Positions 54,913-62,069 of a stretch of 64,000 bases of DNA are shown here, piece by piece. Every line of letters begins with the position of its first letter. Within the stretch, counting starts at the first letter, position 1. Position numbers and translations under genes: made by a program. The stretch covers positions 62,001 to 126,000 of the forward strand of contig NZ_SMGR01000005.1 of assembly GCF_004346865.1 (NCBI RefSeq). The letters run 5' to 3'. The DNA comes from Shimia isoporae (GTDB lineage Bacteria; Pseudomonadota; Alphaproteobacteria; Rhodobacterales; Rhodobacteraceae). The notes below the pieces were generated by a model. It saw only the letters and a list, made by a program, of their open reading frames with translations, did not search any database and was not told the DNA's origin.

Positions 54913-55105
54913 TTCCTAAGGCCTTTTGCCCGCTACGGAAACCCCAACGATGGTCGTCGTCGTCTTTGTCGCGTTCGCTGTATCAGCCCCATCGAACAAT
55001 GTGTCGCCGATAGACCTCGATCCTCTAGTGGATCATGGGCGCAGCGCAAGCAAAACAAGGACAGTCTCGAAGCAATCACAAATCTGACTGCAAGGAGACT
55101 GCCAG

Positions 55106-55255
55106 ATGAAAGACAAACAGATCGGTATTCCGGTGACTGCGGAGCAGAAAGCCGAGATCGAAAAAGCGGTCGACACGACCGGATGCAGCCTGTCCAGCAA
55201 GGGGCGTGAATTGCTCATTGCATGGGCGCGGAGCGTGAATGGTGAGGCGGCATGA
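55106..55255 (+). CDS. Ribbon-helix-helix-like small protein (49 aa)
   Basis: A 49-residue protein with AAGGAG 9 nt upstream. The pattern I-G-I-P-V-T-A-E-Q-K-A-E-I-E-K-A-V followed by S-S-K-G-R-E-L-L-I-A-W-A fits a short RHH fold (a strand then two helices), as in plasmid and phage repressors, excisionases or antitoxins. Its stop overlaps the next start (ATGA), so it is made together with the Arm/GIY-YIG protein and may regulate it or the operon. Confidence 0.65.
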   Translation: MKDKQIGIPVTAEQKAEIEKAVDTTGCSLSSKGRELLIAWARSVNGEAA

Positions 55256-56265
55256 AACTGACCGAGGAAGTCATCAAAGACCTTAAGCCCAACACAGGAA
55301 AGCCCCAAAAGGTCGTAGCTGACGACGACGCGAAATATCTTTTTATCGTCGTCGGAAACACCAAGAAAACGTGGCAAATCCGGTGCCGATCTCAGAAAGC
55401 CCAAATCCAATGGAACATTGGGTACTGGCCAGAGATGAGTTTGCAGGAAGCGAGATCGTACGCGCGACTTGTTGACAGGCAAATAGAGCGAGGTGTTGAC
55501 CCGCGTGAAACGGGTGACCCGCACGAGTGGGCGGGTGAGATTGGACTTCCTGAAGGGAAGGAACGCATACAGGTCGCATCTCCGTTTGTTGATGGCCTCT
55601 CGCTTCAGGTGACCACCAAAAGCAAAAGCTGGCAATTCAGGTACCGGAGCGAAGGAAGTAGCAAACTGCAGACAATCGGCAAATGGCCGCAGGTCAGCGT
55701 TGCACGCGCGGTCGCAATCGCAACATCACTCAATCGCCGCTACCGACTGAGCAAGGTCGCAGACCCCGTGCAAGAAGCGCTGGAAACATTTGTGGACCTA
55801 CTGAACATCGACCGCACCGCGCCCGACTTCCTGACACGATTGGCAGAGCATGGCGACACCCTCAAAGCCGTTTACGAGGCGCAGGCGATGTTAGCCGGTC
55901 CCGACTGGCAACCGCCCATCAAGCCGAAGATGCAGCAACTGGCGAACCCAGACCCACTCAATCCATGGCGGGTTTATTACGCTCGCATCTTGAGCAAGGA
56001 ACACGGTGGGCCGTTTTACAAGGTCGGTGTGTCGAAGCGCGACATTAAGAACCGTCTCACTGAAAGGGAGAACACTGTCACCGAAGTCGCCTGCGCGTAC
56101 TTCCCAGACAAGGAAAGCGCGAAGCTGGTCGAGCAGCAAATCCTTAAAGAATTCGAAGACCTGCGCGGTCTGACACCTCGAATTTTCCCGACGAGCGGAG
56201 GCAACACCGAAGTCTTCCCGTTTGACATTCTGGGACTGGATAGTGAACCGGAGGCCACCACATGA
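55252..56265 (+). CDS. Two integrase-type Arm DNA-binding domains fused to a GIY-YIG nuclease domain
   Basis: A 337-residue protein with a layout I do not recognise from any named family. Residues about 20-85 match the DUF4102/Arm-DNA-bind domain of P4-type integrases (W-Q-I-R near 41, I-G-Y-W-P-E-M-S-L-Q-E-A-R, then R-G-V-D-P). Residues about 108-173 are a second copy (L-S-L-Q-V-T-T-K-S-K-S-W-Q-F-R-Y-R, I-G-K-W-P-Q-V-S). After a linker, residues 238-305 resemble a T5orf172/MUG113-type GIY-YIG domain: V-Y-Y-A-R at 241-245, Y-K-V-G at 256-259, Arg268 and Glu294 as metal ligand. No recombinase catalytic domain follows. It overlaps both neighbours by 4 bp. Confidence 0.8.
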   Translation: MKLTEEVIKDLKPNTGKPQKVVADDDAKYLFIVVGNTKKTWQIRCRSQKAQIQWNIGYWPEMSLQEARSYARLVDRQIERGVDPRETGDPHEWAGEIGLPEGKERIQVASPFVDGLSLQVTTKSKSWQFRYRSEGSSKLQTIGKWPQVSVARAVAIATSLNRRYRLSKVADPVQEALETFVDLLNIDRTAPDFLTRLAEHGDTLKAVYEAQAMLAGPDWQPPIKPKMQQLANPDPLNPWRVYYARILSKEHGGPFYKVGVSKRDIKNRLTERENTVTEVACAYFPDKESAKLVEQQILKEFEDLRGLTPRIFPTSGGNTEVFPFDILGLDSEPEATT

Positions 56266-56480
56266 CCCCAGACCGTCACGAAATGACCGCAGACCGTCAC
56301 GCTTACATCGACGAAATCGCCAAGCGGACCCGCGCCATTCAGGACGCCGCCAAGCGCGGCGAAGACACCCGTCCCCATGTTGACCACCTTTACGCCATTG
56401 CGCCCGTCTCAAACGGCGGGCCCAAAGGCGCGGCAGCGGAGTGGAAACGGAAGTGGAGAAAAGCGAATGGCCTTGACTGA
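56262..56480 (+). CDS. Hypothetical protein (72 aa)
   Basis: A 72-residue basic protein starting M-T-P-D-R-H-E-M-T-A-D-R-H, a short internal repeat, and ending E-W-K-R-K-W-R-K-A-N-G-L-D. It overlaps the stop of the nuclease gene (ATGA). A possible DNA- or partner-binding helix is all that can be said. Confidence 0.6.
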   Translation: MTPDRHEMTADRHAYIDEIAKRTRAIQDAAKRGEDTRPHVDHLYAIAPVSNGGPKGAAAEWKRKWRKANGLD

Positions 56481-56537
56481 TTGACAGGGCTGCAACACCA
56501 GAGAAGACCTGACAGAGTGTAAGGCCCTGTAAACAAA
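56470..56537. promoter_or_regulatory. Repeated intergenic element, copy 1 (before the ATPase gene)
   Basis: The block G-GCCTTGAC at 56470-56478 with ATTGACAGGGC is followed by CCAGAGAAGACCTGACA at 56499-56515 and then GTAAGGCC and AAACAA to 56537. The same 17-bp core and tail recur at 59969-60008. It begins in the last codons of the upstream gene and lies 135 bp before the ATPase start. It may be a phage promoter or repressor site. Confidence 0.6.
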
Positions 56538-56672
56538 CAGAAAATCCCTCGCCAAATCACCGCGTCTGGGGCAAAATGAGAGGGCCATGGAGTGCTGCAA
56601 ACACTCAACATGGCCCTGTTGTTCAACACCGGACGGCAGGCGAACAAAACACCTTGTTACGAAAGGTGCCTC

Positions 56673-58274
56673 ATGGCCGATTTTACATCCGAGAACGACA
56701 CCGAGCAAGGCCCAGCGCCACTGGGCGACAAGGGAGAATTGTTCAAGGACGCCATGGCAAACGGCAGCGCAAAAAACATCTTCGGCCAACCCGCAGACGC
56801 CGCAGAGGGTCAGCGCTTCGACCACAGCAGCATCAGCCCAAGAGGTTACAACGGGTTCAAATGGACCAAGGGCGGACGTGGCCTGCCTTACATGCTCGAC
56901 GGACGCCTGATGAACTGGGCGCTTTACCACGGCACCAACGCTGCCGCCGAAGCGCTCAAACTCATCACCAACATGCTGAAAGAGGGCGACAGCACCGCGA
57001 CCGCAACCGAATTTTTGCACGAAGGCATTCACGCCCTGCGGATTATCTGGCACGACGAAAGCCACGAACTGGTGTGCCTCGTCCCAGCCGACCAAAACGG
57101 CAAATTCCCAAAGTTCGCCTTCATTGACCCGAACACCAACCTTGCAGAAATCAGACCCACGCAATGGGTTTACAAAGACTTCATGGCCCGAGGGCGCACC
57201 AGCCTCACCGTCGCCGCGCCCAAAGTCGGAAAATCCCTGCTGGCCATGCATGAAGCGGTGGACATGGCGACAGGCGGAAAAGTCTTCAACGAACAGATCG
57301 AACCCATGCGGGTGCTTTACCTGAACGCCGAAGACACAGACGACATGCTCTGGGCCAGACTTGCCGCCATCTGCAAACTGCACAACATCAGCCTCGCAGA
57401 CATGGAAGGCAGACTGGTGCTGCAATCCGGTGTCGAATTTCCCGAGTTCTTCCTGCTGGGCTTTGACGAACAGACCAGACAGACCGTCCCGAACCCAGAG
57501 GTCATTAAGGCACTGACCAAGGCAGTCGACCACCTCGACCTCGACGCGATTATTATCGACCCGCTACAAGACCTCTCCCACGCCGATGAAACAAACGAGG
57601 CCTTCCGAACACTGGGCCAAATGCTCCGCCTGTTCGCCAGCACAAAAGACGTCGCAATCCACATCATCCACCACACCCGAAAAGTCGGCGTGGGCCTGAC
57701 ACCCAGCATCGACGATGCCCGAGGCGGATCAGCCCTCCGCGGAACCTGCCGCTTTAACCGCGTTCTGGTCGGGATGGATAAGAACGAAGGGGTGAAGGCC
57801 CAAGTGGACGATCATCGGTTTTTTTTCCGCATCGGCGAAGTGGAAGCCACCATGGCTCCCCCAAGCAGCACCGCAAATCAGTGGTTCGAGAAGACAGCGG
57901 TGGAAACACCCAACGGGGAATGGGTCGGCGCAATCCGACAGTGGCAATGGCCCGACCAGTTCGAGGGGGTGACAGTGGACATGGCCATGAAGGTCAGAAA
58001 AGCCGTGGCCGAGGCTGACCCGCCATACCGCAAAAACCATCAAGCGAAAAACTGGGTGGGAAATGCCGTGATGCAAATCTGCGGCTTCGCTCCGCTGCCC
58101 GACGACACGGAAAACATCCTCAAGGCGAAGAAAGCCCGCGCCACAGCGCTGGTGAACAAGTGGCTGCTCACAGGCGTCCTGAAGGAAACGACCCAGAAAG
58201 ACCCGAGATCAGGCAAGGAGCATCCCATCATCGTAGCCGGACAGAACGACCCGAGCGAAGTGGAGAACTTCTGA
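56673..58274 (+). CDS. RepA/AAA_25-like ATPase
   Basis: A 533-residue ATPase of the RecA-like hexameric helicase group. Walker A is A-P-K-V-G-K-S near residue 181, Walker B L-D-A-I-I-I-D-P near 290, followed by I-I-H-H-T-R-K and the D-A-R-G-G-S-A-L-R-G-T motif of RSF1010 RepA-like proteins. The N-terminal 170 residues are not recognised. The ATG at 56673 follows AAAGG. It probably loads at or unwinds an element origin; the CCACC-rich block lies directly downstream. Confidence 0.8.
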   Translation: MADFTSENDTEQGPAPLGDKGELFKDAMANGSAKNIFGQPADAAEGQRFDHSSISPRGYNGFKWTKGGRGLPYMLDGRLMNWALYHGTNAAAEALKLITNMLKEGDSTATATEFLHEGIHALRIIWHDESHELVCLVPADQNGKFPKFAFIDPNTNLAEIRPTQWVYKDFMARGRTSLTVAAPKVGKSLLAMHEAVDMATGGKVFNEQIEPMRVLYLNAEDTDDMLWARLAAICKLHNISLADMEGRLVLQSGVEFPEFFLLGFDEQTRQTVPNPEVIKALTKAVDHLDLDAIIIDPLQDLSHADETNEAFRTLGQMLRLFASTKDVAIHIIHHTRKVGVGLTPSIDDARGGSALRGTCRFNRVLVGMDKNEGVKAQVDDHRFFFRIGEVEATMAPPSSTANQWFEKTAVETPNGEWVGAIRQWQWPDQFEGVTVDMAMKVRKAVAEADPPYRKNHQAKNWVGNAVMQICGFAPLPDDTENILKAKKARATALVNKWLLTGVLKETTQKDPRSGKEHPIIVAGQNDPSEVENF

Positions 58275-58775
58275 TGCAGAAACCCACACCACTCACCACC
58301 ACCAAACCACCACCAAACCACCACCTATCCACCACCGAGCGGACAGGTGGTGCGGGGCGGTGTGCCCACCATCCCCAGCCCGACCCTGTCAGGGCTGGGG
58401 TGGTGGGTGGTGCGCACCACCACCACCACCCACTAGGGGGTGTGGGGGGGTGGTGGTGGAACGTTTTTTCGACCTTTTCGCAAAAAGGGAGGGTGCCACC
58501 ACCACCCAGACCAACTGGGCTCGAAACCAGTGAACCACCACCACCACCAAACCACCACCCAGACCCACTGGGCTCGACAGCCAACCCAACGCCCGCTCTG
58601 GGCCAATGGCGAAGGGACGCGCACGCGTTGACCCGACAGAAAACTTCGCCAACAGGAGAGCCGAGACGTCCACTGGTACCGATGACCAAAACTGCGCGGT
58701 TCACCTTATTTTTGGATCAGCACTCGCGCGTTCGCGCGATGAGTTTCCCGTCAAACTTAAAAACGGAGCATCGAC
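58275..58775. other. CCACC/GGTGG-rich structured noncoding block, candidate origin or regulatory region
   Basis: These 501 bp hold no credible gene; open frames here are poly-His/Pro/Gly/Trp artefacts of the repeats. Features: dense CCACCA runs; a 9-bp inverted repeat CCCCAGCCC/GGGCTGGGG (58373-58400); the perfect palindrome GGTGGTGCGCACCACC (58406-58421); two 27-bp direct repeats with one mismatch at 58498-58524 and 58551-58577, each holding a CCCAG-N5-CTGGG dyad; and CGCGCGTTCGCGCG at 58725-58738. Iteron-like repeats next to a RepA-like ATPase suggest a replication origin. Confidence 0.5.
58498..58577. repeat. Pair of 27-bp direct repeats with internal dyads
   Basis: Each copy begins ACCACCACCCAGACC and ends ACTGGGCTCGA; the copies differ at one base and start 53 bp apart, five helical turns. 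Inside each, CCCAG and CTGGG form a small dyad. They are the most iteron-like units of the block. Confidence 0.65.
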
Positions 58776-59938: not shown

Positions 59939-60040
59939 GGCCCTGACACCGTAGCACGCCACCCCCTCCCAGAGAAGACCTGACACCCCGTAAAGGCCTT
60001 AGAAACAAGGGCCTTGACACATTGCAGGGCGACGACCAAC
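59939..60040. promoter_or_regulatory. Repeated intergenic element, copy 2 (before the pre-portal gene)
   Basis: GGCCCTGACA at 59939, then CCAGAGAAGACCTGACA at 59969-59985, GTAAAGGCC and AAACAA to 60008, then GGCCTTGACACATTG and CAGGGC at 60010-60030. All blocks match copy 1 at 56470-56537, though the TTGAC block lies after the core here as well as a similar one before it. The gene starts 73 bp further on. Confidence 0.6.
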
Positions 60041-60578: not shown

Positions 60579-62069
60579 ATGGCAAAGCCGCCCCGCATAG
60601 ACACGCCGCTGGTGCCGCCAGCAGGACCACTCCGCAGACAGGCAGGCACCTCGGGCCTGCGCCATGTGTCAGGCTACCTGCAGGAAGAATACCAGCGCGA
60701 ACTGCAGGGGCGACGTGGCCGCGAACTCTACAACGAGATGGAAACGGCCTCCCCCGTCATTGGCGGAATGCTGTTTGCCATCCGCTCTGCCATGCGCGGC
60801 GCAAACTGGCGGGTGATACCAGCCGACGACAGCGACGCAGCCGACCGCCTCAAAGTGTTAATCGAGGAAGGCCTCGCGGACATGCAGCAGAGCATGAGCG
60901 ATGTGGTCAGCAGCGCCGCCTCCATGCTGACCTACGGTTTCAGCATCCAAGAACCGCTGTGGCGGCAACGCAAGGGCAAGAACCGCGCCCAACCGTGGCT
61001 CTCGTCCAAGTACAACGACGGGCTCTGGTTTCCGTACCGCTTGGCCGCGCGTAGTCAGCGCACCATCGACCGCTGGATTTTCGACCAAGAGAGCGAGCAA
61101 ATTCTGGGCTTCGTCCAAACCCCGTGGAACGGCATCCAGCGCAGCGTGCCCATGAGCCGCTGCCTCCACTACCGGACCACCGACGACCTCGACAATCCAG
61201 AAGGCCGATCGATCCTCCGCAACGCCTACGTGCCCTATTATTTCACCAAGCGGCTCAACGAACTCGAAGCCATAGGTTGTGAAAGAGATTTGACGGGCTA
61301 CCCAGTTTTGAAAGTGCCCGGCGAACTTCTCTCCAACGACGCGGACCCGAGCGCCATCGCCACCCGCAACGCCTACGAGAGCATGCTGGGCAATATCCGC
61401 CGCGACACAATGGAAGGGCTCCTGCTGCCCAGCGACGTCGATGATGCCGGAAATGCCTTCTACCAGTTTGAACTGATGACCAGCGGAGGCACCCGCGCGG
61501 TAGACACCGACGCCATGATCCGCCGCCACGAAGTCCGCATGGCGCAATCCGTCATGGCCGACTTCCTGTTCATCGGCTCCGAAAGCACAGGCTCGCACGC
61601 ATTGGCCGAGGTCAAACTCAAGAGCCTGCTGGGCGCGACCGAAAACCTGATGCAGTCGGTGGCCCATGTCCTGAACACCAGCCTCCTGCCGATGCTTTCA
61701 GCCATCAACGGCTTTGACGACGACCTGATGCCAACCCTGCAGCCTGAACCGCTGGTGCCCGCTGACCTCGACGGACTGGGCAATTACATCACCAGCCTGA
61801 CCAACGCAGGTATACCGCTCACAGACCAAGAAACCGAGAACACCCTGCGCGAGTTGGCGGACCTGCCGGAAGGACCAGCGCCAGAGGACCGCGACGCCGC
61901 CCTGATGATGCCGCCGATGGACCTCGGCGACGACACCGCGGACGACACCAATGTCGTGCCGTTCACGCCACCCGCGGACGACCCGTCCGCGGACGACAGC
62001 GTCCAGATGGAGAAGCGCCAGACCTTCGGCGAAGCCATGGGCGACCTACTGGGCAAGGAGCGGTTCTGA
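60579..62069 (+). CDS. Phage portal protein, Mu gp29-like (DUF935)
   Basis: A 496-residue portal protein. Family signs include Y-N-E-M-E-T-A-S-P-V-I-G-G near residue 50, W-R-V-I-P, S-A-A-S-M-L-T-Y-G-F-S-I-Q-E near 111-124, R-C-L-H-Y-R and G-R-S-I-L-R-N-A-Y-V-P-Y-Y. AGGAG precedes the ATG. The portal forms the DNA entry channel of the capsid. In Mu-like phages the large terminase gene comes right before; here it does not. Confidence 0.88.
   Translation: MAKPPRIDTPLVPPAGPLRRQAGTSGLRHVSGYLQEEYQRELQGRRGRELYNEMETASPVIGGMLFAIRSAMRGANWRVIPADDSDAADRLKVLIEEGLADMQQSMSDVVSSAASMLTYGFSIQEPLWRQRKGKNRAQPWLSSKYNDGLWFPYRLAARSQRTIDRWIFDQESEQILGFVQTPWNGIQRSVPMSRCLHYRTTDDLDNPEGRSILRNAYVPYYFTKRLNELEAIGCERDLTGYPVLKVPGELLSNDADPSAIATRNAYESMLGNIRRDTMEGLLLPSDVDDAGNAFYQFELMTSGGTRAVDTDAMIRRHEVRMAQSVMADFLFIGSESTGSHALAEVKLKSLLGATENLMQSVAHVLNTSLLPMLSAINGFDDDLMPTLQPEPLVPADLDGLGNYITSLTNAGIPLTDQETENTLRELADLPEGPAPEDRDAALMMPPMDLGDDTADDTNVVPFTPPADDPSADDSVQMEKRQTFGEAMGDLLGKERF

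Follow-up and report, generated by a model that had tools for sequence, protein, structure and literature searches.

What does a protein do that carries the DNA-binding Arms of an integrase in front of a nuclease instead of a recombinase? This question is raised by a gene at 55252..56265 (+) of the 64,000-nucleotide stretch of Shimia isoporae DNA analysed here (the window), which encodes a protein of 337 aa in a single intact frame. An earlier note, made from the letters alone, had read it as two tandem Arm repeats followed by a GIY-YIG domain in place of a recombinase. It had further proposed that a mobile element carries the gene and that the product serves as a homing-like endonuclease, a plasmid-like nicking enzyme or an interference factor against related elements. 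We examined the domains of this fusion protein, the element and the genes around it, possible target sites, and the occurrence of the same domain order elsewhere.

Two integrase-type Arms precede a T5orf172 domain

The fusion matched the Pfam model Arm-DNA-bind_3 (PF13356) in two stretches, with 84.1 bits and an E-value of 7.4e-24 (cut-off, 27). Arm1, the best Pfam stretch, spans residues 3-86 (55258..55509, +); Arm2, the second Pfam stretch, spans residues ~92-175 (55525..55776, +), with limits taken from a purpose-built Arm profile. The W-x-x-R and I-G-x-W-P patterns that had been reported for both repeats are there, as WQIR/IGYWP and WQFR/IGKWP. Copies 1 and 2 scored 98.1 and 77.6 bits with the purpose-built profile, compared with 12.3 and 14.8 bits for the best of 20,000 shuffled controls each; because this profile was seeded with the Arms of the fusion, the independent evidence for the Arms is that from Pfam. 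A fusion Arm also matched the solved Arm structure 3jtz (E 0.002), and in PHROGs the fusion matched two families, one of endonucleases and one that carries an Arm and has no assigned function. The Pfam scan detected no Phage_integrase domain in the fusion, and no recombinase core follows the Arms.

Pfam, an independent profile, alignments and a structural model placed a T5orf172/GIY-YIG domain at residues ~240-325 (55969..56226, +). Residues 249-305 matched T5orf172 (PF10544) with 21.5 bits (E 3.5e-4), barely exceeding the cut-off of 20. The independent profile, for which 39 stretches were taken from other genomes and the fusion was left out, gave 23.8 bits for the C-terminal part and 7.4 bits for the best of 20,000 shuffles, of which 14,572 gave a score. 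Both domain families were above their Pfam cut-offs, T5orf172 only just, and the proposed architecture of two Arms and a GIY-YIG domain without a recombinase was confirmed.

The residues named in the earlier note are also in place: YY at 242-243, YKVG at 256-259, R268 and E294. In a six-row alignment, Y242, K257, G259, R268, E294 and E320 were invariant. In a 33-row alignment, the invariant residues were K257, G259, R268, E294, R305, E320 and F322; the conserved first Tyr fell on R245 of the fusion, which is not a Tyr, and the fusion had L298, T319 and V321 where nearly all other rows had H, G and W. Among the catalytic-type residues of GIY-YIG enzymes, Y256, K257, G259, R268, E294 and E320 are in place, with the first Tyr represented by Y242 in only one of the two alignments. 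The departures in the 33-row alignment suggest a divergent nuclease with one ambiguous catalytic-type position.

AlphaFold2 prediction of the whole fusion from the single sequence gave a mean pLDDT of 39.9, and that of the last 114 residues with 32 viral T5orf172 rows gave 70.7, with values of 71-85 over model residues 11-80. The modelled order of the C-terminal part is strand-strand-helix-strand-helix-helix-strand. A Foldseek search of this model against viral models (BFVD) returned T5orf172 and GIY-YIG proteins, with a probability of 1.00 for most of the top 20 matches and two matches at E <= 0.001; among them were a putative intron-associated endonuclease, CapR-homology proteins and a protein of phage Mt1B1_P17. 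The same search against the PDB gave no significant match (best E, 0.38). Since the input rows were themselves T5orf172 domains, which biases the model, the result is support rather than independent proof; with this reservation, a GIY-YIG fold is predicted for the C-terminal 114 residues, in agreement with the earlier assignment.

A second T5orf172 match was seen in the same genome, outside the window, in a frame of 161 codons (G000:C6:112760-113005). Larger T5orf172 proteins of other family genomes (L113, L115, L117) share a similar-looking N-terminal region, for example WVRAFYGF and WLTSFYGF.

The fusion gene resides in an integrated element that has its own integrase

The supposition that a mobile element carries the gene proved correct. 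The element begins at 55010, runs to the end of the window (64000) and continues to L003:18371 (window-equivalent 72370), that is, 17.35 kb between the direct-repeat cores. The attachment core ATAGACCTCGATC, 13 bp long and the longest exact direct repeat between the element ends, is located at 55010..55022 on the left and at L003:18359-18371 (window-equivalent 72358-72370) on the right. GC content is 0.55-0.65 within the element and 0.52-0.54 outside. The fusion gene lies near the left end, and the true tyrosine integrase, with one Arm and a Phage_integrase domain (35.8 bits), is encoded on the minus strand at the right end, beyond the window. Because the element has this integrase, the fusion is not needed for integration.

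The right core falls in the 3' end of a ceramidase-like gene (L003:18326-19003, -), to which the element supplies the new C-terminus EVYARHVEGVSNS. When the flanks were joined without the element, the encoded protein ended in EVYRRHIVRWG. Comparison with 12 of 14 relative loci showed that EVYRRH occurs in three of the 12 ceramidase-like C-termini and EVWRRH in two. In the one other genome of the genus, a search for the empty attachment site gave no ceramidase match.

The element also encodes a Mu-type portal protein (60579..62069, +; Pfam Portal_Mu, 125.7 bits), an AAA_25 ATPase, two HTH proteins, a tail-completion protein, a tape measure protein, a Mu-F-like head protein and a Mom-like DNA modification protein (Pfam Mom, 27.8 bits; cut-off, 27.1). 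Neither a large terminase nor a major capsid protein was recognised among the element proteins scanned. We regard the element as satellite-like or as a decayed prophage. The fusion might accordingly be a functionless product of chance recombination in a decaying prophage, a reading with which the lack of a recognised terminase and capsid protein, the divergence from the family at the first Tyr and at the places of the usual H, G and W, and the singleton status of the fusion (see below) would all agree. However, all 337 codons are intact, both Arms and most catalytic-type residues are kept, and the neighbouring genes overlap with the fusion gene, so that we consider such a relic improbable.

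The fusion gene overlaps two small genes and precedes an AAA_25 gene

The start of the fusion gene overlaps by ATGA with the gene of a 49-aa RHH-like peptide (55106..55255, +), and its end overlaps, again by ATGA, with that of a 72-aa protein of unknown function (56262..56480, +), for which Pfam, PHROGs and further searches gave no convincing family match. The earlier note had taken the three genes for a module with an RHH-like first member. The overlaps on both sides of the fusion are real, and it is this gene overlap that speaks for a module, whereas the RHH reading is weak (a NikA-like match of 20.6 bits, below the cut-off of 27). At the start of the 72-aa gene, a 21-bp tandem duplication (56262-56301) creates two possible start codons.

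Further downstream lies the gene of the helicase-like AAA_25 ATPase (56592..58274, +; the start may be 56673; Pfam, 111.2 bits). A short ACCACCACCAA tandem array (58287-58336) is found 3' of this gene. Relatives of the ATPase were found in 16 of 295 family genomes, the own genome included. Ten of the other fifteen were examined, and nine of these had, 0.9-2.6 kb upstream and in the same orientation, an ORF of 392-476 codons that encodes an Arm. Here, the slot upstream of AAA_25 is occupied by the fusion gene, and the integrase gene stands at the far end instead. The simplest history we infer is that the fusion gene replaced, or grew out of, an integrase gene upstream of AAA_25. The integrase-AAA_25 pair itself appears as a recurring module (L072-L076, L078-L081), with short intervening ORFs that in several cases look like AlpA by eye.

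One Arm resembles that of the integrase of the same element

We compared the Arms of the fusion with 70 others, comprising nine AAA_25-linked Arms, 40 controls, 20 short-frame cases and the Arm of the element's own integrase; the controls were hand-picked from the best-scoring PF13356 rows and are not a random sample. Among these 70, Arm2 was closest to the own integrase (score 121; next, 94). Arm1 was closest to the integrase of genome G094 (130), with the own integrase third (101), and the former belongs to another element that likewise has an AAA_25 gene. In an alternative set of 69 Arms, for which resemblance to the query was part of the selection, the own integrase ranked first for Arm2, narrowly (121 versus 118), and 28th for Arm1. 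When the 295 family genomes were searched, the own integrase ranked third by E-value among the matches starting in the Arm2 region.

Arm2 and the Arm of the own integrase are 39% identical. The best Arm matches of the fusion in general reach ~38-39% identity, and no closely matching rival element was found. The AAA_25-linked integrase Arms as a group were not closer to the fusion than the controls (p 0.45 and 0.86).

A near-palindromic 19-bp motif is a candidate site

A near-palindromic 19-bp motif occurs at three gene starts of the element (AAA, portal and integrase). Site A lies between the 72-aa gene and the AAA_25 gene (56508..56526, +), site B lies upstream of the portal operon (59979..59997, +), and two further, inverted copies lie between the integrase and the right core (L003:18186-18204 and L003:18254-18272). 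Both sites A and B have a weaker inverted copy with three mismatches within 60 bp (56470..56488, - and 60011..60029, -, respectively); shuffled flanks reproduced such a copy 11 and 16 times in 3,000. The first motif pattern was derived from three sites seen by eye and a repeat search, and with up to three mismatches it gave nine matches in L003 compared with a mean of 0.34 in shuffles, the fourth site, B, having one mismatch. The widened pattern CCTKACANNNYGTAARGSC fits all four sites by construction. Across the 4.23 Mb genome it had four exact copies, all in the element, and one 1-mismatch copy elsewhere; the reversed control had none.

The motif is not a general arm site of integrases, as the other loci scanned contained no exact copy and a single 2-mismatch copy (L006). 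A shared CCAGAGAAGA lies just upstream of sites A and B. Scans for terminators and promoters near the motif sites gave nothing above chance. We propose the 19-bp motif as a candidate site, whose possible binders are the fusion, the integrase, either HTH protein and the RHH-like peptide.

These findings bear on two readings in which the fusion would serve its own element. According to the first, it is a site-specific regulator or an accessory factor, which either contends with the integrase for arm-type sites or recognises the 19-bp motif, its nuclease acting conditionally. The closeness of Arm2 to the own integrase among the 70 Arms would fit this, as would the motif at three gene starts, with two copies between integrase and right core and next to none elsewhere in the genome, and the weaker inverted copies beside sites A and B. 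But the integrase, the RHH-like peptide or either HTH protein could bind the motif, only one 2-mismatch copy accompanies the other Arm integrases examined, and conservation of the nuclease residues would be unnecessary in a pure regulator. We judge this reading unlikely. According to the second, the Arms direct the GIY-YIG domain to an origin beside the AAA_25 helicase gene, and its nick starts replication of the element. The fusion gene is indeed just upstream of that helicase-like gene, with site A between them, and the product of the first small gene weakly resembles the mobilisation protein NikA; however, the motif copies are scattered over the element rather than clustered as at an origin, and we know of no GIY-YIG replication initiator. 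Such a replication nickase seems very improbable.

No second Arm and GIY-YIG protein was found

The same domain order, for which the earlier note had proposed a search in other Rhodobacteraceae elements, did not turn up in the family genomes sampled, by either profile or protein searches. More broadly, no second protein with both an Arm and a GIY-YIG domain was found in phages, plasmids, viral contigs, genome contigs or sampled genomes, in searches of limited sensitivity. With the whole fusion as query, tblastn matched 103 phage records and 38 plasmid records, none covering 80% of the query; among the matches listed, all fell in the Arm part except that of Prevotella phage Lak-A1. Six phage matches were examined and were integrases or a DUF723-T5orf172 endonuclease, judged by annotation or length. 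The same query matched 39 of 295 family genomes and 7 of 385 class genomes, and among the matches listed all but the own gene were in the Arms. The C-terminal part as query matched six weak phage records and three of the 295 genomes, namely the own gene, an amidase-like frame and a 34-codon frame. Viral contigs and genome contigs, scanned with short patterns from the fusion or from alignments led by it, contained no further case; because these patterns were few and short, the scans detect close relatives only.

Starting from either domain gave the same picture. A PF10544 scan of the 295 genomes matched 54 of them in 64 rows, and no Arm was found in the ORFs around the matches in the loci of 50 of these rows; the scan missed the fusion itself and so misses distant cases. 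The plus-strand frames of 80 viral T5orf172 loci likewise contained no Arm. The 20 short-frame PF13356 cases, among the matches listed, had one Arm each and looked by eye like an integrase start or a truncated integrase. In the open-access literature, we found no paper joining GIY-YIG with DUF4102, Arm-DNA-bind or an integrase arm-binding domain, and none that links arm-type DNA binding by integrases to an endonuclease and a satellite. Within the reach of these searches, the fusion is unique in its domain order.

A singleton gene near one end of an element could be a free-standing homing endonuclease gene that has recruited Arms. It would cut related elements from which the gene is absent, spread through repair and be of no use to the carrier. 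Phage homing endonucleases usually have a T5orf172 domain behind a series of N-terminal binding domains (PMC10448857). Nevertheless, the ATGA overlaps on both sides are operon-like, and the searches found no relative, carrying the gene or lacking it, that would reveal an insertion. This origin and function, too, we think unlikely.

A nuclease that may act against related integrative elements

The chimeric anatomy, most of the catalytic-type residues, the host element and its separate true integrase can be seen directly in the DNA; by reasoning from these, the fusion would bind DNA at particular sites, cut it and play a part in competition between elements. The closest model for such an activity is Odn (Gp88) of phage ICP1, in which a domain 42% identical to the RepA_N of a satellite directs T5orf172 to cleave the satellite's origin; the phage thus destroys the satellite by putting the satellite's own origin-binding domain on a nuclease (PMC8263062). 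By analogy, we tentatively prefer to regard the fusion as an Odn-like chimeric, sequence-directed nuclease that acts against related integrative elements through their attachment or regulatory sites, an explanation that is possible rather than probable. Arm-type or similar sites would be recognised by the two integrase-type Arms, with cutting or nicking nearby by the T5orf172 GIY-YIG domain at the C-terminus. The sites attacked would be attachment or regulatory sites of related integrative elements entering the same cell, and those elements would then be unable to integrate, excise or replicate. The designation of the nuclease as nickase-type in the earlier note is conjectural; Odn, a T5orf172 enzyme, cleaves its target (PMC8263062). 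Of the roles listed in that note, precedent is best for interference with related elements, which also agrees with the Arm similarities; plasmid-like nicking would draw on the weak NikA-like match.

Several results argue for the Odn-like explanation. The Arms and T5orf172 are joined in one intact frame, each far above shuffles, with K257, G259, R268, E294 and E320 kept, and the C-terminal model matches viral T5orf172 proteins, including that of Mt1B1_P17, a phage with a protein described as Odn-like (PMC10448857). The layout is that of Odn, and N-terminal binding domains commonly come in repeats among phage T5orf172 enzymes, 229 of which were surveyed (PMC10448857); a DUF723-type region is paired with T5orf172 in Vibrio phage D181. 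The element has its own integrase, to which Arm2 is closest, Arm1 is closest to the integrase of an AAA_25-bearing element, and the fusion sits where nine of ten AAA_25 relatives have an Arm-bearing ORF of integrase length. On the other side, the best Arm matches are only ~38-39% identical without a closely matching rival, the AAA_25-linked Arms are not closer as a group, Odn is carried by a helper phage but the fusion by an integrated element, and in the 33-row alignment the nuclease differs from its family in the first Tyr and in the residues that are usually H, G and W, while its model has no significant fold match in the PDB.

Since Arm2 resembles the Arm of the own integrase, one may ask whether the fusion would cut its own element. 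This difficulty might be solved by differences between sites or by Mom-like modification; in the latter case, the Mom-like protein might mark the element's own DNA as self and form a compact restriction-like pair with the fusion. The wider proposal of a new class of attachment-site-directed nucleases, in which Arms, one of them resembling that of the own integrase, target T5orf172 to exclude related elements, is a doubtful one at present. Arm integrases are common (Arm-DNA-bind_3, PF13356, was found in 304 of 394 sampled family genomes), so that the Odn-like explanation predicts a testable class of targets. If it is true, the fusion is a naturally occurring nuclease that a small and modular DNA-binding domain directs to its target.

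Comparison with known systems

With Arm-type tyrosine integrases, the fusion shares Arm domains with W-x-x-R and I-G-x-W-P; unlike them, it has two Arms in tandem and no recombinase domain. The C-terminal T5orf172 domain behind repeated N-terminal binding domains is the arrangement of the phage homing endonucleases with CapR, DUF723 or DUF4397 repeats (PMC10448857). In the fusion, however, Arms take the place of the zinc-finger type domains, a zinc finger being present in 200 of the 229 phage enzymes surveyed; for others, the available passages of that survey name RepA_N and no Arm (PMC10448857). In the endonuclease of Vibrio phage D181, a DUF723-type region (24.4 bits) precedes T5orf172 (22.9 bits); the fusion is 30-32% identical to it over the aligned nuclease part, and FYKVG and GGNTE are common to both.

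As in Odn, a DNA-binding domain of mobile-element type comes first in the fusion and T5orf172 last (PMC8263062), and as in Odn-like coliphage proteins, which carry two RepA_N domains, there are two N-terminal binding domains (PMC10448857). Whereas Odn and the Odn-like proteins use RepA_N and are aimed at satellite replication origins (PMC8263062, PMC10448857), the fusion uses integrase Arms and would be aimed at arm-type or similar sites. The former are carried by the phages that satellites parasitise, the fusion by an integrated 17.35 kb element. An Arm-guided nuclease, if true, would thus extend the Odn principle to integrase attachment sites and to conflicts in which the attacker is an integrated element.
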